A program made the translations under genes and the position numbers. Under the pieces are notes generated by a model. The model ran no database searches, had not been told where the DNA came from, and was given only the letters and a program-made list of their open reading frames with translations. 64,000 nt of DNA from an uncultured Roseburia sp. Lineage in GTDB: Bacteria > Bacillota > Clostridia > Lachnospirales > Lachnospiraceae. How positions within the stretch are numbered: position 1 is the stretch's first letter; every line of letters begins with the position of its first letter. The stretch is from assembly GCA_944380515.1 (NCBI GenBank), contig CALWHT010000025.1:81551-145550 (forward strand). Reading direction: 5' to 3'. Of the stretch, positions 37,982-45,809 are shown piece after piece.

Positions 37982-39208
37982 ATGGCAAAAAAAGAGTTGG
38001 AGCTTTATATCCACATTCCGTTTTGCATGAAAAAATGCAATTACTGTGATTTTTTATCCTTCACTGCCGACGAGGATACACAGCGGCGGTACATTGAGGC
38101 GTTAAACAGGGAAATCGCCTTTTACGGAAAGCACTGCAAAGATTATGTGCTTTCCACCGTCTATATCGGGGGCGGAACGCCCTCCTGGCTTGGGGAGGAG
38201 GAAATCGCCGCGGTGATGGAGACGGTGTACGCCGCCTTTTCGGTGAAGGAGGACGCAGAGGTTTCGCTGGAATGCAATCCCGGGACGGTCACTGCCCGCA
38301 AGCTTTCGGTGTACCGGCAGAGCGGGATCAACCGCTTAAGCATCGGGCTGCAATCGACGGATAACCGGGAATTAAAGATGCTGGGGCGCGTTCATACCTT
38401 TGAGCAGTTTTTAAAAACCTACGAGCTGGCGCGGGAGGCGGGGTTTGCCAATATCAATGTGGATTTGATGAACTCCCTGCCGGGACAGACGACGGATTCC
38501 TTTTTGGCAACACTGCAGAAGGTATGCAGGCTTCGGCCGGAGCATGTCTCCGCGTATTCTCTGATCATCGAAAAAGGCACGCCGTTTTACGATTTATATA
38601 AATTTGACGCGGTAAAGCAGGCGGCCGGCATGCAGACGGATGCCCTCCCGACGGAGGAGGAGGTCTGCGCGATGACGAAAATGACGGAACGCGTACTGGC
38701 GGAGCACGGCTATGTGCATTATGAAGTGTCAAATTTTGCGCTCCCCGGTTATGCGTGCCGCCATAATATCGGCTACTGGAAACGGGCGGAATATCTCGGT
38801 GTGGGGCTGGGAGCGGCTTCTCTGCTGTCAAATATCCGCTACACCAATACGGGGGAGCTGTACGCTTATCTGGAGGGGTCAGCGTGCCTTCGTCCGGGAT
38901 TGTGGGAGAATCCAAAGGAGGACGGACAGACGGAGGAGCTTCCGGCGGTCAATCTCCATGTATCTGTCGAGCGGATTGACCGCCGCGGACAGATGGAGGA
39001 ATTTATGTTTCTGGGACTTCGGATGATGGATGGTATTTCCAGACAGGAGTTTGAGGAGTGCTTCGGCGTACCGATTGAGGCGGTCTATCAGGAGACGATG
39101 GCACATCTGCAGGAGGAGGGGCTGTTGATCAAGCGCGCGGGAAGAATTTATCTGAGCGAGCGGGGACAGGAGGTAAGCAACTACGCACTTGCGCAGTTCC
39201 TTTCTTAA
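37982..39208 (+). CDS. hemW: Radical SAM family heme chaperone HemW
   Basis: A 408-residue radical SAM protein of the HemW group, formerly called oxygen-independent coproporphyrinogen oxidase-like. The cluster motif CMKKCNYCDF (CxxxCxxC) is at about residue 15 and the SAM-binding GGGTPSWL follows at about 64. HemW lacks the extra Cys of true HemN and acts in haem delivery. It starts immediately after lepA and shares its transcript. Confidence 0.93.
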   Translation: MAKKELELYIHIPFCMKKCNYCDFLSFTADEDTQRRYIEALNREIAFYGKHCKDYVLSTVYIGGGTPSWLGEEEIAAVMETVYAAFSVKEDAEVSLECNPGTVTARKLSVYRQSGINRLSIGLQSTDNRELKMLGRVHTFEQFLKTYELAREAGFANINVDLMNSLPGQTTDSFLATLQKVCRLRPEHVSAYSLIIEKGTPFYDLYKFDAVKQAAGMQTDALPTEEEVCAMTKMTERVLAEHGYVHYEVSNFALPGYACRHNIGYWKRAEYLGVGLGAASLLSNIRYTNTGELYAYLEGSACLRPGLWENPKEDGQTEELPAVNLHVSVERIDRRGQMEEFMFLGLRMMDGISRQEFEECFGVPIEAVYQETMAHLQEEGLLIKRAGRIYLSERGQEVSNYALAQFLS

Positions 39209-39253
39209 TCTTAAGAAAATGTTTCGTGGCATTTTTCGGTGCGTTAGGGTACA

Positions 39254-40852
39254 ATGAATACCAGAGTAATCATGGATGGTAAAACTATGGATTGGAATAT
39301 GCAAAGGCGAAGGAAAAAGCGTTTAAGGAATCTGGTATGCATTGTCTATTGTATGATACAGCTTGCTGTGGTGCTGGGGGCATTTTGGGGCATGGATAAG
39401 CTGCTCGCGCGCATTGTTCCCGCGAGCATCGATTTGTCGGCGATTGAGGGCAGTATCGTGGTGCTGGACGGCGACGGGGATTCCCTGGATGAGGACAAGC
39501 TCACCGTATGTGTGGATGCGGGCCATGGCGGAAAGGATAACGGCTCTGATTACCGGCTTCGCTATGAGAAAAACGACAATTTAAAAATAGCGCAGGCCGT
39601 CGCCTCGTATCTGACAGGACAGGGCGTGCAGGTGATTATGACGCGGACGGACGACACCTTTTTATCGTTGGAGGAACGAACCGAATTTGCCAATCAGAAC
39701 GGGGCGGATTATCTGATTTCTCTCCACCGCAATACGGGTGACGGGAACGGTGTGGAAACCTGGATATACAGCAATGCGGATGAGGAGACGAACGCGCTGG
39801 CGGCCAATATCATGGACAATCTGGATGCAGCGGGAATTCAGCGGAACCGGGGCGTAAAGCAGGGAACGCAGAACAGTGATTCCGGGGACTATTACATAAA
39901 TCTCCATTCGGACATGCCGTCCTGTATTGTGGAGCTTGGCTTTATGAACAGTACGGCGGATAATCAGCTTTTTGACGCGAATCTGAGCGATTACGCAAAG
40001 GCAATCGGCGACGCGGTCCTGACGACTTATGAGGCATACGGGGAGAGCGGAGCGCAGGCGGACACAGAGGCTGCCACGGAAACCGGGGGCACGGAGCAGA
40101 CGGGCGGAGCCGGGAATGCCAATATGGGACAGGTGCTGCAAAATACTGTCATAGAGAATGTTGACGCGCTGGATGCTTCCGGTAAGGAATGGGGACAGGG
40201 AACAAATGTGGACGAGAAAAACCGTCCGACCGGAGCGCTGTTGTATCAGGAGCAGTACGGCAAATATAATGCGTATTTTATCGGTGAGGAGAGCCGGAAT
40301 ATTTACCTCACGTTTGATGAGGGGTACGAATACGGGCAGACGGAAAGTATTTTAAATACGTTAAAGGAAAAAGGCGTTTCGGCGACTTTTTTTATTACGG
40401 AGCCTTACGCAAAGTCAAATCCTGAGCTGGTGCGCCGGATGATTGACGAGGGGCATGTGGTAGGAAATCACAGCGTGACGCATCCGGCGGCAGGACTGCC
40501 GTCCCTGTCGGCGGAGCAGCAGAAAAATGAAGTGACCGGGAATCACGCCTATGTCAAGGAGAATTTCGGCTATGACATGTATCTGTTCCGCTATCCGACC
40601 GGACGCTTCAGTGAGCAGTCCCTGGCAATCGTGAATAACTGTAATTATAAGAGTATTTTCTGGAGCTTTGCGTATCTGGATTATGACGTGGAAAATCAGC
40701 CGGATGAGGCGGAGAGTCTTGGGAAGCTTAAGGACAGGCTGCATCCGGGGGCAATCTATCTGCTCCATGCGGAGTCTGAGACGAACGCTGCAATTTTGGG
40801 TGATTTTATCGATGCAGTCCGTGCGGCGGGGTACGGATTTTTGAATTTTTAA
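39254..40852 (+). CDS. CwlD-like amidase fused to PdaA-like polysaccharide deacetylase
   Basis: One 532-residue chain joins two peptidoglycan enzymes. An N-terminal basic segment and membrane anchor (about residues 18-52) are followed by an Amidase_3 domain (about 75-265) with zinc ligands in VDAGHGGKDNG, YEKNDNLKIA and ISLHRN, and catalytic Glu in IVELGFMNS. After an Ala/Thr/Glu/Gly-rich linker (about 268-330) comes a NodB-type deacetylase (about 350-532) resembling spore PdaA: YNAYFIG, YLTFDEGYEYG, GHVVGNHSVTHP, RYPTGRFSE and HPGAIYLLHAES. In B. subtilis CwlD and PdaA act in turn to make muramic delta-lactam in spore cortex. The start is uncertain; ATG 39272 or 39287 are alternatives because TACAAT overlaps 39254. 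Confidence 0.88.
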   Translation: MNTRVIMDGKTMDWNMQRRRKKRLRNLVCIVYCMIQLAVVLGAFWGMDKLLARIVPASIDLSAIEGSIVVLDGDGDSLDEDKLTVCVDAGHGGKDNGSDYRLRYEKNDNLKIAQAVASYLTGQGVQVIMTRTDDTFLSLEERTEFANQNGADYLISLHRNTGDGNGVETWIYSNADEETNALAANIMDNLDAAGIQRNRGVKQGTQNSDSGDYYINLHSDMPSCIVELGFMNSTADNQLFDANLSDYAKAIGDAVLTTYEAYGESGAQADTEAATETGGTEQTGGAGNANMGQVLQNTVIENVDALDASGKEWGQGTNVDEKNRPTGALLYQEQYGKYNAYFIGEESRNIYLTFDEGYEYGQTESILNTLKEKGVSATFFITEPYAKSNPELVRRMIDEGHVVGNHSVTHPAAGLPSLSAEQQKNEVTGNHAYVKENFGYDMYLFRYPTGRFSEQSLAIVNNCNYKSIFWSFAYLDYDVENQPDEAESLGKLKDRLHPGAIYLLHAESETNAAILGDFIDAVRAAGYGFLNF

Positions 40853-40861
40853 AAACACCGA

Positions 40862-40890
40862 TTGACAGAAGCACTGAAAAATTATAAGAT
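40862..40890 (+). promoter_or_regulatory. Promoter of the Lsa-type ABC-F gene
   Basis: TTGACA (40862-40867), 17-bp spacer, TAAGAT (40885-40890). It lies about 290 bp before the ABC-F start, giving a long leader that contains a short open reading frame and a terminator. Confidence 0.75.
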
Positions 40891-40918
40891 AATGGCAGTC
40901 AGAAAGGCGGGTGAAAGG

Positions 40919-40939
40919 ATGATTATTATTTCCTGTTAA
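40919..40939 (+). CDS. Six-codon leader peptide MIIISC
   Basis: ATG at 40919 followed by three Ile codons, Ser, Cys and TAA. A partial Shine-Dalgarno (GGCGGGTG) lies a few bases upstream. Its second half (40928-40939) pairs perfectly with 41007-41018, so translation or stalling on it would change leader folding. Too short to judge by coding statistics; the call rests on position ahead of an antibiotic-resistance ABC-F gene, where such leaders are known. Confidence 0.6.
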   Translation: MIIISC

Positions 40940-41018
40940 TCAAACGAACTGAAAAGCATATCAAAAAAGAGTGTCCGATGCGGGCACAGGTTTGGTATGT
41001 CTCGTTTTAACAGGAAAT
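40928..41018 (+). promoter_or_regulatory. Long leader hairpin over the leader peptide
   Basis: A 12-bp perfect stem (40928-40939 with 41007-41018) extends inward through AACGA/TCGTT and a 9-bp segment around 40957 and 40990, and encloses a small GTGTCCG/CGGGCAC hairpin. A ribosome on the leader peptide would melt it. The freed ATCTTTT (about 41023-41029) can pair with AAAAGAT inside the terminator arm, a possible antiterminator. Confidence 0.65.
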
Positions 41019-41074
41019 CTGATATCTTTTCACGGCTGCCGTATTGCGGAAAGAACAGCAAAGTGTGCGATTGT

Positions 41075-41109
41075 AAAAAAGATGTGAGGAAGACCTTGCA
41101 TCTTTTTTC
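41075..41109 (+). terminator. Leader terminator upstream of the ABC-F gene
   Basis: AAAAAAGATG (41075-41084) pairs with CATCTTTTTT (41099-41108), and the interior adds AGG/CCT around a 4-nt loop. It lies upstream of the coding region rather than after a gene, which marks it as an attenuator. Confidence 0.8.
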
Positions 41110-41177
41110 GTGTTGTGTCGGAAATAAACCTGTTACATCACGGGGCATGCCGTCGATGCGTAAGGAGTGTGATGGAA

Positions 41178-42767
41178 ATGTCCAGAATAGATGTGAGCCA
41201 TTTGACGTTTTATTATGACGGAAGTTATGAAAATGTGTTTGAGGATGTGTCGTTTCAGATTGACACCGATTGGAAGCTGGGATTTATCGGGAGAAACGGC
41301 AGGGGAAAAACGACGTTTTTAAAGCTTCTGCTCGGTGAGTATGAATATCGGGGGACGATTTCTTCCGATGTCGTGTTTGACTATTTTCCGTGCAGGGTGA
41401 GCGATAAGACGAAGCAGACCATCGAGGTTGTGGAGGAGCTTGCCCCGGACTATGAGTTTTGGGAGCTGTGCCGGGAGTGGTCTTATTTAAAGGGGGCAGA
41501 CGATGTGTGGTTCCGCCCGTTTGAGACGCTAAGCAACGGAGAGCAGACGAAACTGCTGCTTGCCGTGCTGTTTTTGCGGCAGGAGCATTTTCTTTTGATT
41601 GACGAGCCGACGAATCATCTGGATATGGAGACAAGGCAGGTGGTGTGTGAGTATCTGCGGCGGAAAAAGGGATTTATCCTGGTATCTCATGACCGGGCGT
41701 TTTTAGACGGCTGTATCGACCATGTACTCTCGATAAACAGGCAGGGAATTGAGGTCGTGCAGGGGAATTTTTCGAGCTGGTGGGAAAATAAAGAGCGGCA
41801 GGACGCCTATGAACTGGCGGAGCATGAAAAGCTGAAAAAGGACATTAAGCGTCTTTCGGCTGCGGCCAGACAGGCGAAAGGCTGGGCGGATGCCGTGGAA
41901 GCCACCAAAATCGGAAAAAAATCCTTTGAAAATGGTGAAAAGGTCGGACTGCGCGATTATATCGGGGAAAAATCAAGGCGGATGCAGAAGCGCCGCAAAA
42001 ACCTGGAACGGCGGCGGGAAAAGGAGCTCGAAGAAAAGTCGAAGCTTTTAAAAAATGTGGAATCCCAGGAAGAACTCCGGCTTATAACTGCCTCCTATCA
42101 CAAGGATTTGCTGGTGGAGGCCAAAGCGGTTTCTCTGTCTTACCTCATGGAAGATGGCGCGGGACAAAAGGAGGTATGCAGCGGTCTTTCATTTGAACTG
42201 CGGCAGGGGGACTGTCTGGTGTTAAAGGGGCCAAACGGCTGTGGAAAGTCAACCGTGCTGCAGGCGGTGCTTGCCGCCGCGGGGGCAGTGCCGGCGTATG
42301 CAAAGCAAACGGGGGCCTGCCGAAAGCCGCAGATCGAAAAAGGGAACCTTACCGTTTCTTCGGGGCTTAAGATATCCTATGTCTCCCAGGACGCATCCTG
42401 GTTATGCGGGAGGCTTGCGGATTATATCGCAGAGGAAAAAATAGATGAAACTCTGTTTAAGCAGTTTCTGCGGAAATTGGATTTTTCCCGTTCCCAGTTT
42501 GAAAAGCGCATGGAGGAATTTTCCGAGGGACAGAAAAAGAAGGTATTGCTCGCAAGGAGCCTCTGTGACGCGGCGCATGTGTATATCTGGGATGAACCGC
42601 TGAACTTTATCGATATTTTCTCGCGCATGCAGCTCGAGGAGCTCATTTTGGCGTATCGTCCGACGATGCTTATGGTAGAGCATGATAAGAGCTTTGTGGA
42701 GCGCGTGGGCACAAAGGTTGTGGAGCTTTCACAGGCTTGCAATTCAAAGAAAAGCATGTTACCATAG
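41178..42767 (+). CDS. Lsa-type ABC-F ribosomal protection protein
   Basis: A soluble twin-ABC protein of 529 residues closely resembling the Lsa/CplR group that removes lincosamides, pleuromutilins and streptogramin A from the ribosome. Markers: IDTDWKLGFIGRNGRGKTTFLKLLLG (first Walker A), RPFETLSNGEQTKLLLA, LLIDEPTNHLDM, QGNFSSWWENK, a Lys/Arg-rich linker and the second Walker A GPNGCGKST, with signature EFSEGQKKKVLLARS. The second domain carries an extra stretch (about 375-405), making it longer than Lsa(A). Start is ATG 41178 (MSRID) or 41172. A leader peptide and terminator suggest drug-inducible expression. The resistance spectrum is inferred. Confidence 0.88.
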   Translation: MSRIDVSHLTFYYDGSYENVFEDVSFQIDTDWKLGFIGRNGRGKTTFLKLLLGEYEYRGTISSDVVFDYFPCRVSDKTKQTIEVVEELAPDYEFWELCREWSYLKGADDVWFRPFETLSNGEQTKLLLAVLFLRQEHFLLIDEPTNHLDMETRQVVCEYLRRKKGFILVSHDRAFLDGCIDHVLSINRQGIEVVQGNFSSWWENKERQDAYELAEHEKLKKDIKRLSAAARQAKGWADAVEATKIGKKSFENGEKVGLRDYIGEKSRRMQKRRKNLERRREKELEEKSKLLKNVESQEELRLITASYHKDLLVEAKAVSLSYLMEDGAGQKEVCSGLSFELRQGDCLVLKGPNGCGKSTVLQAVLAAAGAVPAYAKQTGACRKPQIEKGNLTVSSGLKISYVSQDASWLCGRLADYIAEEKIDETLFKQFLRKLDFSRSQFEKRMEEFSEGQKKKVLLARSLCDAAHVYIWDEPLNFIDIFSRMQLEELILAYRPTMLMVEHDKSFVERVGTKVVELSQACNSKKSMLP

Positions 42768-42794
42768 AAACAGCTTCACAGAGAGCAGGGGTTC

Positions 42795-42983
42795 CGTCAG
42801 TGGTATTCCTCCTTTCTGCGGAAGAAAACAGATACACGAGTACAAAAATATGGCACTGACGCCAAAATCACCGATGACGGCGATTGAGGGGAAAGGTATG
42901 GCAAATCATAAGGATATTTCGGCGGCGCAGAGACTGCGGCGCCGTCAGAAGGCTGTACCTGAAAACGGGTGCGGCCTTTTTTT
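42795..42983 (+). promoter_or_regulatory. Structured leader and terminator before the hydrogenase maturation operon
   Basis: CGTCAGTG (42795-42802) pairs with CACTGACG (42854-42861). Downstream are a GC-rich hairpin (about 42921-42943) and a terminator: 13 pairs (42949-42961 with 42966-42978, three G-U), AAAA loop and seven T residues. Placed just before the first gene, this looks like attenuation. I could not match it to a known riboswitch. A strong GAGGGGAAAGG plus ATG at 42898 opens a frame that runs through the terminator into the regulator gene, so a leader peptide is also possible. Confidence 0.6.
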
Positions 42984-43008
42984 CTTTTTACAGGTTATGG
43001 AGGATTTT

Positions 43009-43284
43009 ATGGAGACAAGAGTAGCGTTAATCGGAATTATTGTGGAAAATACGGATTCCACGCCGCAGTTAAATCAGCTTTTGCATGAGTACGGCGATTT
43101 TATCATCGGCAGGATGGGGATTCCGTACCGGGAGCGCGGCGTGCATGTCATCAGCGTGGTGATTGACGCGCCGCAGGATGCCATCAATGCGCTGTCGGGA
43201 AAAATCGGGCGGCTCTCCGGAATTACGGCAAAGACTGTTTATTCCAATGTGGCGGGAAAGGCGGAAAAAAATGCTGCAGAATAA
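43009..43284 (+). CDS. TM1266 family iron-only hydrogenase system regulator
   Basis: A small 91-residue ferredoxin-like/ACT-NikR-type protein of the TM1266 family, which accompanies [FeFe]-hydrogenase maturation genes and is a putative regulator. It has the pattern RVALIGIIVEN, IIGRMGIPY, GVHVISVVIDA and LSGKIGRLSGITAKTVYS. The ATG at 43009 follows GGAGG with 5-bp spacing. It overlaps hydE by 14 bp. Confidence 0.88.
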   Translation: METRVALIGIIVENTDSTPQLNQLLHEYGDFIIGRMGIPYRERGVHVISVVIDAPQDAINALSGKIGRLSGITAKTVYSNVAGKAEKNAAE

Positions 43285-44332
43285 AAGAAATACAGGCTCT
43301 GCGCTCATAGAAAAAATCGCCGAAACCAAAGACATCACAAGGGAGGAGCTTTCGTACCTGCTTTCTGGGGAGGATGAGGAAATCATTCAGGAGCTTAACC
43401 GAAAGGCAAGGGAAACGGCGGATGAGATTTACGGGAAAAAGGTATTTATCCGAGGGCTGATTGAATTTACCAATTATTGTAAAAATGACTGTCTTTACTG
43501 CGGCATCCGAAAGAGTAACCGCAGGGCGGAGCGTTACCGTCTGACGGAGGAGGAAATTTTATCCTGCTGTGAGAGCGGCTATGATCTGGGTTTTCGCACC
43601 TTCGTGCTGCAGGGCGGGGAGGATGCTTTTTTTACCGACGAAAAAATCTGCGGCATTGTAAAACAAATCAAGTCCCGCTATCCCGACTGTGCCGTGACGC
43701 TTTCCATAGGAGAAAAATCAAGGGAGAGCTATCAGGCGTATTTTGACGCGGGGGCAGACCGGTATCTGCTGCGCCATGAGACGGCGGACGCGGCGCACTA
43801 CGGGAGCCTTCACCCGAAGGAAATGTCATGGGAAAACAGAATCCGCTGCCTTTGGGATTTAAAGGCCATCGGCTATCAGACCGGCTGCGGGTTTATGGTA
43901 GGTTCCCCGCATCAGACGGTGGATACGCTGTATGAGGATTTGCAGTTTATCCGTAAATTGCAGCCGCAGATGGTCGGGATTGGGCCGTTTATCCCGCAGA
44001 AGGACACACCCTTTGGGGGCGAGGCTGCGGGGACGATGGAAATGACGCTGCGGCTTCTTTCCATTATCCGGCTGCTGCATCCTCCCGTGCTGCTTCCGGC
44101 GACGACGGCGCTTGGGACCATTCACCCGAAAGGGAGGGAACTCGGCATTTTGGCGGGCGCAAACGTGGTAATGCCGAACCTTTCCCCCGTGGGGGTGAGG
44201 GAGAAATATAAGCTGTACGACAATAAAATCTGTACCGGAGACGAGGCTGCGGAGTGCCGCTTTTGCATGGAAAACCGGATGAAGGGCATCGGGTACGAGG
44301 TAGCGGTGGACCGGGGAGATTTTCGTGGCTGA
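43271..44332 (+). CDS. hydE: [FeFe]-hydrogenase H-cluster radical SAM maturase HydE
   Basis: A 353-residue radical SAM enzyme needed to build the H-cluster; it makes the organometallic precursor used for the dithiolate bridge. The cluster motif CKNDCLYCGI (CxxxCxxC) lies at about residue 68, followed by FVLQGGEDAFF and GFMVGSPHQT. The start at 43271 overlaps the TM1266 gene, so the two are coupled. hydG begins 50 bp after. Confidence 0.94.
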   Translation: MLQNKRNTGSALIEKIAETKDITREELSYLLSGEDEEIIQELNRKARETADEIYGKKVFIRGLIEFTNYCKNDCLYCGIRKSNRRAERYRLTEEEILSCCESGYDLGFRTFVLQGGEDAFFTDEKICGIVKQIKSRYPDCAVTLSIGEKSRESYQAYFDAGADRYLLRHETADAAHYGSLHPKEMSWENRIRCLWDLKAIGYQTGCGFMVGSPHQTVDTLYEDLQFIRKLQPQMVGIGPFIPQKDTPFGGEAAGTMEMTLRLLSIIRLLHPPVLLPATTALGTIHPKGRELGILAGANVVMPNLSPVGVREKYKLYDNKICTGDEAAECRFCMENRMKGIGYEVAVDRGDFRG

Positions 44333-44381
44333 AAAGCTCTGGAAAAGACCGGAGCGGTTCATAAATCAGAAAGGAAGGAAG

Positions 44382-45809
44382 ATGTGTATGTACGATGTAA
44401 AATCAATGAGGGCGGAGGAATTTATCTCCGACGAGGAAATCAGAGAAACGCTTGCCTATGCGGACGCCAACAAGGATAATGAGGCGCTGATTGATGAGAT
44501 TATTGAAAAGGCAAAGCAGAGGAAGGGCTTAAACCACCGGGAGGCATCCGTATTATTGGCCTGTGAAATTCCGGAAAAGGTGGAAGAGGTATACCGCCTG
44601 GCGGAGCAGATCAAAAAAGATTTTTACGGCAACCGGATTGTGCTGTTCGCTCCGCTGTATCTGTCAAATTACTGTGTGAACGGCTGTGTTTACTGTCCGT
44701 ATCACCTGAAAAACAAGCATATTGCGAGAAAGAAGCTGACACAGGAGGAAATCGTAAAAGAGGTGACCGCGCTTCAGGATATGGGGCATAAGCGCCTTGC
44801 CATCGAGGCGGGGGAGGACCCGGTCAACAATCCGATTGAATATATTCTGGAATGTATCGACACGATTTACAGCATTAAACATAAAAACGGCGCAATCCGC
44901 CGCGTCAATGTCAATATTGCGGCGACTACCGTGGAGAACTACCGCAAATTAAAGGACGCGGGTATCGGAACCTACATTTTATTCCAGGAGACCTACCACA
45001 AGGAAAGCTATGAGAAGCTTCATCCGACGGGACCAAAGCATGATTATGCATATCACACGGAGGCGATGGACCGCGCCATGGAGGGCGGCATTGACGATGT
45101 CGGACTCGGCGTGCTGTTCGGACTGGATTTATATCGTTATGAGTTTGCGGGACTTTTGATGCACGCGGAGCACTTAGAGGCCGTACACGGCGTCGGGCCG
45201 CACACCATCAGCGTGCCGCGCGTGAAGCATGCGGACGATATTGACCCGGCGGCGTTTGACAACGGGATTTCGGACGATACCTTTGCGAAAATCTGTGCCC
45301 TGATTCGTGTTTCCGTGCCCTATACAGGCATGATTATCTCTACCAGAGAGAGCCAGGAGGTCCGTGAGCGGGTATTGCCTCTGGGTGTCTCCCAGATCAG
45401 CGGCGCGTCCAAAACAAGTGTCGGCGGCTATGCCGAGCCCGAGAAAGAGGAGGAGGTTACCAGCGAGCAGTTTGATGTCAGCGACCAGCGGACGCTCGAT
45501 GAGGTGGTCAACTGGCTGATGAAGCTTGGCTATATCCCGAGCTTCTGCACCGCCTGCTACCGGGAGGGAAGAACCGGGGACCGCTTTATGGCGCTCTGCA
45601 AAAATATGCAGATTTTAAATTGCTGCCATCCCAACGCGCTGATGACGTTAAAGGAATATCTGGAGGATTATGCGAGCGAGGAAACCAGAAAAATCGGTAT
45701 GGAGCTGATTGACCGGGAACTGGAGAAGATTCCCAATCCGAAGGTAAAGCAGACTGCCTATGAGCATATTCACGATATCGCGGAAGGAAAACGTGATTTC
45801 CGGTTTTAG
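44382..45809 (+). CDS. hydG: [FeFe]-hydrogenase H-cluster radical SAM maturase HydG
   Basis: A tyrosine-lyase radical SAM enzyme that makes the CO and CN ligands of the H-cluster. The 475-residue protein has the N-terminal motif CVNGCVYCPYHLKN and the HydG-specific C-terminal cluster-binding Cys set (CTACYREGRTGDRFM...C...CC). The ATG at 44382 has AAGGAAGGA upstream; an in-frame ATG at 44325 lies within hydE. hydF follows 12 bp on. Confidence 0.95.
   Translation: MCMYDVKSMRAEEFISDEEIRETLAYADANKDNEALIDEIIEKAKQRKGLNHREASVLLACEIPEKVEEVYRLAEQIKKDFYGNRIVLFAPLYLSNYCVNGCVYCPYHLKNKHIARKKLTQEEIVKEVTALQDMGHKRLAIEAGEDPVNNPIEYILECIDTIYSIKHKNGAIRRVNVNIAATTVENYRKLKDAGIGTYILFQETYHKESYEKLHPTGPKHDYAYHTEAMDRAMEGGIDDVGLGVLFGLDLYRYEFAGLLMHAEHLEAVHGVGPHTISVPRVKHADDIDPAAFDNGISDDTFAKICALIRVSVPYTGMIISTRESQEVRERVLPLGVSQISGASKTSVGGYAEPEKEEEVTSEQFDVSDQRTLDEVVNWLMKLGYIPSFCTACYREGRTGDRFMALCKNMQILNCCHPNALMTLKEYLEDYASEETRKIGMELIDRELEKIPNPKVKQTAYEHIHDIAEGKRDFRF

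Follow-up and report, generated by a model that had tools for sequence, protein, structure and literature searches.

A single-chain amidase and PdaA-like deacetylase in an uncultured Roseburia and other Lachnospiraceae

The window analysed here—64,000 nucleotides of one contig from an uncultured Roseburia sp. (genome G000)—carries a gene in which an amidase and a PdaA-like deacetylase form a single chain. The fusion is confirmed: an assembly or annotation artefact is ruled out by two-domain chains in many genomes, and those of other genera stand at 40-55% identity to the window protein, far beyond chance. So far, peptide removal, MurNAc deacetylation, and lactam closure have been known from the spore cortex, where two proteins carry them out; in Bacillus subtilis, according to the portion of PMC10116595 drawn on here, PdaA deacetylates MurNAc only where CwlD has already taken off the peptide, after which it is able to form the lactam ring, which makes the substrate hand-over proposed in the first-pass annotation a sensible idea by analogy. 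Tentatively, we take the fusion to be an accessory, membrane-anchored bifunctional peptidoglycan editor whose more likely site of action is the growing or stressed wall rather than the cortex. Anchored on the outer face of the membrane, the chain would cleave the stem peptide off MurNAc with its amidase half, after which the tethered deacetylase half would remove the N-acetyl group from the bared (denuded) MurNAc and might also close the muramic-delta-lactam, as PdaA does; it would act beside, not in place of, the CwlD and PdaA of its own genome. We infer that both reactions take place, in this order and on MurNAc rather than GlcNAc, with cyclisation as a possible further step, and likewise infer when and where the gene is expressed. 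Such a chain offers a direct test of denuded-strand deacetylation or muramic lactam outside the cortex, and puts two linked enzymes at the disposal of in vitro studies of substrate hand-over.

The fused chain and its active sites

The first-pass annotation placed the gene at 39254-40852, a forward-strand frame that is indeed open (532 aa); translation, however, probably begins at ATG 39287 (521 aa). Among the relatives read, the first 11 codons of the longer frame are common only to the 97%-identical L009, and because the proteins of all others begin directly ahead of the basic stretch preceding the membrane helix, the downstream ATG is the likelier start. Residue numbers for active sites and Pfam spans are counted from ATG 39254, those for the structure model from ATG 39287 (Table 1).

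Both domains read from the letters alone were recovered in this one ORF at scores above the Pfam cut-offs: Amidase_3 (PF01520) at residues 85-255 (138.5 bits against a gathering cut-off of 27), with its His-Glu-His-Glu set, and the CE4/NodB family Polysacc_deac_1 (PF01522) at residues 347-467 (111.9 bits against 23.1), with D355, H406 and H410 (HxxxH), and H505. A Pfam scan of the window protein at E 0.001 returned no third family. An AlphaFold2 model built from 38 sequences (mean pLDDT 86.0, pTM 0.51) predicts a long N-terminal helix (residues 2-43), consistent with the membrane anchor proposed earlier, and two confident domains separated by a disordered linker (254-279); given the pTM, the relative placing of the domains was not used. 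Foldseek paired the deacetylase half with PdaA of B. subtilis (1ny1, E 7.2e-20) and the amidase half with a Clostridioides difficile amidase (4rn7, 5.9e-16), with CwlD (7rag) lower at 1.9e-12.

Table 1. Coordinates of the fusion gene, its parts, and upstream features in the window
Feature	Position	Strand	Remarks
Upstream neighbour, hemW-like	37982..39208	+	order lepA-hemW-fusion
TTAAGAAA upstream element	39211..39218	+	fixed distance before -10-like hexamer
Promoter-like GTGGCA-N18-TACAAT	39226..39255	+	9/12 matches; 19/100 resampled sequences reach the score
Amidase-deacetylase fusion gene	39287..40852	+	521 aa from probable start ATG 39287; longer ORF opens at 39254
Predicted N-terminal membrane anchor	39290..39415	+	model helix 2-43; basic RRRKKR, then hydrophobic stretch
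Amidase_3 domain	39506..40018	+	Pfam; residues H91, E105, H158, E227; fold match
Flexible linker (predicted)	40046..40123	+	model residues 254-279, pLDDT <50
PdaA-like CE4 deacetylase domain	40190..40840	+	Pfam, PdaA model score, solved-structure alignment, Foldseek
Motif 1, TFDEG	40310..40324	+	Asp base kept, Glu at third metal position

The catalytic residues, with roles assigned from the families, are intact in the window protein. All zinc and catalytic residues of the amidase are found, as the earlier reading had claimed (H91, E105, H158, E227), and the deacetylase retains D355 (base), H406 and H410 (metal), R446, D476, and H505 (acid). At the third metal position stands E356, where B. subtilis PdaA has Asn; alignment to the solved PdaA, pairing TFDEGYEYG with TFDNGYENG, shows that the earlier remark on this exchange was right. 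We then surveyed 24 fused loci besides the window, with same-locus copies and two fusions of a second type (below) set aside. The amidase residues are intact in all 23 fused relatives that reach that far, and 21/24 loci have kept the base, the two metal His, and the acid His of the deacetylase. Glu occupies the third metal position in 20/24, and the otherwise intact L074 and L171 have Met and Ile there, respectively; Glu is therefore favoured, not universal. Nor is TFDEG peculiar to fusions, an idea weakened by its presence in many standalone clostridial relatives, some of them above the PdaA cut-off (its frequency in our contig scan is biased, since TFDEGYEY was among the scan patterns). Our literature search found no published, tested enzyme with Glu at this position.

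In the three remaining loci (L172, L173, and L196), the fused deacetylase lacks metal and acid residues beside an intact amidase. Each of these genomes also encodes another deacetylase that matches the window protein and has intact motifs (L195, L197, and L177; the motifs of L197 were judged by eye), which we count in favour of the wall-editor reading. Such degenerate halves would suit an explanation in which the main task of the deacetylase half is to regulate or target its amidase partner by binding denuded strands, deacetylation being secondary. A parallel comes from the section of PMC12440217 used here, where E. coli SddA deacetylates amidase-made denuded strands, shares an operon with an amidase activator, modulates septal amidases, and inhibits amidase activation, and where an Agrobacterium homologue without metal ligands remains in the envC operon. 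Against this, the catalytic set is intact in the window and in most relatives, and in the same section amidase inhibition by SddA required its activity; we consider a mainly regulatory role distinctly unlikely. In outline, the SddA-EnvC/amidase system resembles the fusion as a denuded-strand deacetylase genetically coupled to amidase action, whereas SddA, as that section describes it, belongs to another Pfam family (PF04748), targets GlcNAc, and works as a separate protein in a Gram-negative bacterium. The simplest account of the fusion would, by analogy, be an SddA- or PdaA-like hand-over within one anchored chain. Among open-licence PMC titles and abstract openings, we found no paper on an amidase-deacetylase fusion of this sort.

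Kinship of the two halves

The protein had been introduced as a CwlD-PdaA fusion, a name that does not hold by descent. The amidase reaches 88.7 bits on the CwlD model (TIGR02883, spore_cwlD; cut-off 221.55), and the deacetylase 217.7 bits on that for PdaA (TIGR02884, spore_pdaA; cut-off 298). In our trees, all from quick SH-aLRT searches without bootstrap, 30 CwlD-like proteins form their own clade (97, starred) with the fused amidases elsewhere, and the deacetylase falls in a 42-row clade (SH-aLRT 100) of Lachnospiraceae and Oscillospiraceae proteins that leaves the canonical TFD[AC]G PdaA group outside; five rows, short or remote, were dropped from the deacetylase tree beforehand. Another TFDEG-bearing group, which includes the top scorers on the PdaA model, also lies apart from this fusion clade. 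Low model scores and tree positions together mean that the name expresses analogy, not descent.

Comparison with known enzymes gives a similar picture. Like B. subtilis PdaA, the fused deacetylase has the CE4 fold, the Asp base, two metal His, the acid His, and a residue other than Asp at the third position of motif 1; unlike PdaA, it has Glu there (PdaA has Asn, Ala, or Cys), sits in a separate clade below the PdaA cut-off, and has an amidase attached. The solved structures nearest to it by sequence are 2j13 (152.7 bits) and PdaA (150.5 bits; PDB 1w17/1ny1). The amidase half shares with C. difficile CwlD (7rag) the Amidase_3 zinc amidase and the N-terminal anchor, and differs in model score and clade; by sequence it is closer to 4rn7 (92.2 bits) than to CwlD, which reaches only 38.8 bits. 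On TIGR02873 (YlxY), which we take to be SwsB, the deacetylase scores only 83.5 bits against a cut-off of 391.5. The part of PMC12444981 consulted describes SwsB as a pure muramic-lactam cyclase with Asn for the base Asp and no deacetylation. The CE4 fold is thus common to SwsB, itself a member of the lactam pathway, and the window fusion, whereas the fusion keeps the base Asp.

The amidase lies closest to proteins of another kind. Its best PHROG match is a phage endolysin family (phrog_435, 157.6 bits), and the fused amidases, grouped with that of Roseburia porci (86, unstarred), are joined (99, starred) with two endolysin-like proteins, L064 and L066, the latter carrying peptidoglycan-binding domains. 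This endolysin- or autolysin-type kinship would suit two independent domains, that is, a general autolysin joined to a deacetylase of GlcNAc that confers lysozyme resistance, as vegetative deacetylases do in C. difficile (PMC7864072, in the portion cited). Yet the three PgdA-type models give the deacetylase 64.6-89.6 bits where the PdaA model gives 217.7, and the conservation of the fusion, along with a gene overlap in R. porci, argues for joint action; we give independent domains very little credence.

In R. porci (L023), the amidase and deacetylase are two genes overlapping by ATGA, each product with its own hydrophobic N-terminus, and both place among the fusions in the deacetylase and amidase trees. 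One group of 35 rows (96, starred) holds all 24 fusions of its tree, R. porci, and ten singles, a mixture that makes a single joining with later splits or losses possible. A looser arrangement occurs in G261 (L185), a genome of another genus, where a membrane amidase gene, outside the fused branch, lies ~70 nt before a lipoprotein-like deacetylase gene of the wider clade. The L185 deacetylase has a repeated PSKKPETDAESTQA linker.

A second fusion type occurs in the same genus (L163:1288-2811 in G015 and L164:1185-2642 in G032). Like the window fusion, it has Amidase_3 followed by Polysacc_deac_1 in one chain; unlike it, it bears TFDDG, has an amidase on its own branch (97, starred), and has almost abutting domains. 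By its sequence, this type seems to have been joined independently. Upstream of each copy lies a gene of unknown kind, alike in the two genomes. One-chain, ATGA-overlapping two-gene, and second-fusion versions show that Lachnospiraceae have coupled these two activities on more than one occasion.

Ten proteins were also scanned for N-terminal modules. Standalone TFDEG or TMDEG deacetylases have varied N-terminal parts—Ig-like in L030 and L180, G5 in L055, and CWB2 in L060—so modules that bind the wall or surface often accompany this deacetylase domain.

Separate enzymes, spore genes, and distribution

The first-pass annotation envisaged a one-enzyme route to cortex muramic lactam and asked whether the genome lacks separate cwlD and pdaA. 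It does not, which is the first half of the refuting observation named in that annotation, and a one-enzyme route in G000 accordingly finds no support. In this genome (3.07 Mb, 99.85% complete), Amidase_3 and Polysacc_deac_1 are matched four times each, once by the fusion. A protein of 277 aa on contig C48, with TFDCG, is PdaA by the NCBI model (300.8 bits against 298), and one of 231 aa on C13 is CwlD-like, narrowly under the cut-off at 207 bits (221.55) and inside the CwlD clade; the fusion as sole CwlD or PdaA of G000 is thereby excluded. By gene content G000 looks like a spore former, with a SpoIVA match (607.6 bits), a sigG-like sigma factor (421.1 bits, under the cut-off of 457, as in all genus mates), and four proteins matched by Hydrolase_2 (the SleB/CwlJ family). 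According to the excerpt of PMC11913394 used, electron microscopy has shown spores in Roseburia intestinalis.

A single ORF with both domains is present in 9/36 genomes of the genus, our own included (G000, G004, G006, G015, G019, G020, G022, G032, and G035). Of 250 genomes drawn from the family, 29 gave a match to the window protein at E 1e-60 or better, and two-domain fusions are present in 9 of the 29 (G000, G141, G157, G202, G206, G217, G236, G240, and G299). Taking as canonical PdaA any protein outside the fusion clade that scores at least 240 bits for PdaA, we found one in 12/36 genus genomes (those in G021 and G023 were read in part, with motif 1 not seen): 6/9 with the fusion against 6/27 without (p 0.036, uncorrected for kinship). 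All nine genus fusion genomes also have a CwlD-like gene of 206-213 bits. An accessory role is favoured by the separate PdaA and CwlD-like genes of G000 and by this co-occurrence of fusion and canonical PdaA.

These data also bear on the possibility that the fusion is a second cortex enzyme, a single chain that forms muramic-delta-lactam during sporulation or assists in its formation, and the main enzyme where canonical PdaA is absent. The spore genes of G000 agree with such a role, as does SpoIVA in 15/17 distinct fusion genomes tested (8/9 in the genus and 8/9 genera of the family draw; the tally covers genus and family-draw fusion genomes, with named fusion loci from the contig scan left out). 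The two genomes without SpoIVA are both incomplete: G022 (68% complete), whose best match to the sigG model is 237.6 bits, and G299 (89% complete), which carries a sigG fragment. In G004 (100% complete, 7% contaminated), the fusion is present and canonical PdaA is not, and five SpoIVA-positive fusion genera of the family are likewise without one (G236, G141, G240, G217, and G157). The strongest point comes from G236 and G141: both have SpoIVA and a sigG-level match, but at E 1e-45 their sole PdaA-like hit is the fusion.

Several observations stand against a cortex role. Six fusion genomes of the genus, our own and five others, retain canonical PdaA, and all nine retain the CwlD-like gene. SpoIVA association in the family points neither way, at 8/9 fusion genomes against 153/241 others (p 0.16, not significant) and 21/29 genomes matching the window protein at E 1e-60 against 140/221 others (p 0.41). 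Standalone deacetylases of the wider clade, though none of them fused, occur in six genomes, 93-99% complete, without SpoIVA or a sigG-level match (G102, G127, G148, G227, G256, and G268), so this type of deacetylase is not tied to spores. Finally, fusions fill the place of missing PdaA in only 2 of 19 PdaA-less SpoIVA-positive genus genomes (G004 and G006). Taken with the promoter tests below, we regard a cortex role as a live but doubtful explanation, and an accessory wall editor remains our preferred reading.

Separately, 19 of the 31 SpoIVA-positive genus genomes have no match of at least 240 bits to the PdaA model outside the fusion clade. The fusion is not a general stand-in for the missing enzyme, since 17 of these 19 are also without it.

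Upstream region and neighbourhood

Sporulation control of the fusion, which the first-pass annotation suggested testing, gives no consistent signal upstream but may still operate. We scored 15 upstream stretches singly against sigma-A and four sporulation sigma models, using consensus sequences and 100 resampled sequences for each. For the window stretch, the resampled fraction was 0.19 for sigma-A and 0.61-0.82 for the sporulation sigmas. Over all stretches, 3/60 sporulation-sigma tests reached 0.05 or below (L019 with sigma-G, 0.03; L076 with sigma-F, 0.00; L016 with sigma-K, 0.01), none of them in the window; this is about chance level, so no sporulation-sigma model fits consistently, which counts against a cortex role. 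The L076 match, which beats 100/100 resampled sequences, counts in its favour. By eye, GGGTACAATG in the window likewise agrees with the sigma-F -10, but its -35 does not. The -10 hexamers of sigma-E and sigma-K begin CATA, and no -10 hexamer inspected begins in this way. Sigma-A tests reached 0.05 in 1/15 stretches (L015), and no individual sigma-A-like site is convincing; on the whole, scoring stretches one at a time was uninformative.

The conserved block upstream nonetheless looks sigma-A-like. In the window, a -10-like TACAAT at 39250-39255 overlaps the upstream ATG at 39254, a further hint that translation begins at ATG 39287. The element TTAAGAAA occurs in 10/24 upstream stretches against 0.43 expected under first-order resampling, a count that overstates independence because the stretches are related (about six lineages); it is present in 9/21 stretches before fused or tandem genes and in 1/3 before standalone genes. 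All but one of the 10 have a TA..[AT]T hexamer whose first base is 38, 39, 48, or 49 nt downstream of the element (39 in the window). The element is missing from 14/24 stretches, including six genus-type fusions and all six stretches of other genera, and four fusions without it (two close pairs) share TAGACA-N17-TATTAT. Judging from these sequences, we have moderate confidence in a sigma-A promoter with an activator site upstream of the fusion, and count it in favour of the accessory wall editor.

A more specific version of the wall-editing idea combines this region with the enzymology: the fusion would be a single-chain maker of de-N-acetylated muramic acid or muramic-delta-lactam outside the spore, under a sigma-A-type promoter and with TTAAGAAA as a possible response-regulator site. 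We think this full combination unlikely. If it were true, muramic lactam would also be a mark of the vegetative wall, growing or stressed, in gut Lachnospiraceae, and its maker would combine a PdaA paralogue with an endolysin-like amidase that was recruited independently; muramic lactam is described as unique to spores in the part of PMC12444981 at hand.

The gene lies directly downstream of a reading frame that, like its own upstream neighbour, we name from its translation—presumably hemW and lepA, respectively. A hemW gene lies upstream in 9/15 distinct fused or tandem relatives with upstream DNA, preceded by lepA in L009, L010, L013, L017, and L022, and in 0/6 loci of other genera. On the 3' side, a cluster at 42682-45809 looks from its translation like a TM1266-type regulator with HydE and HydG, which we take to be for iron-only hydrogenase maturation; several relatives likewise have hydE- and hydG-like genes on the 3' side of their fusion.

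The region 40862-41115, which separates the fusion from an ABC-F-like ATPase gene (ORF 41115-42767), has a promoter-like TTGACA-N17-TAAGAT, a stretch rich in purines, a leader ORF of six residues (40919-40939, MIIISC), and a long inverted repeat. An Rfam search of the window gave no match. The RNA of 40897-41120 folds at -77.9 kcal/mol (z -7.07), with a terminator-like stem at 41075-41108, and by these sequence features the region looks like a ribosome-mediated attenuator.
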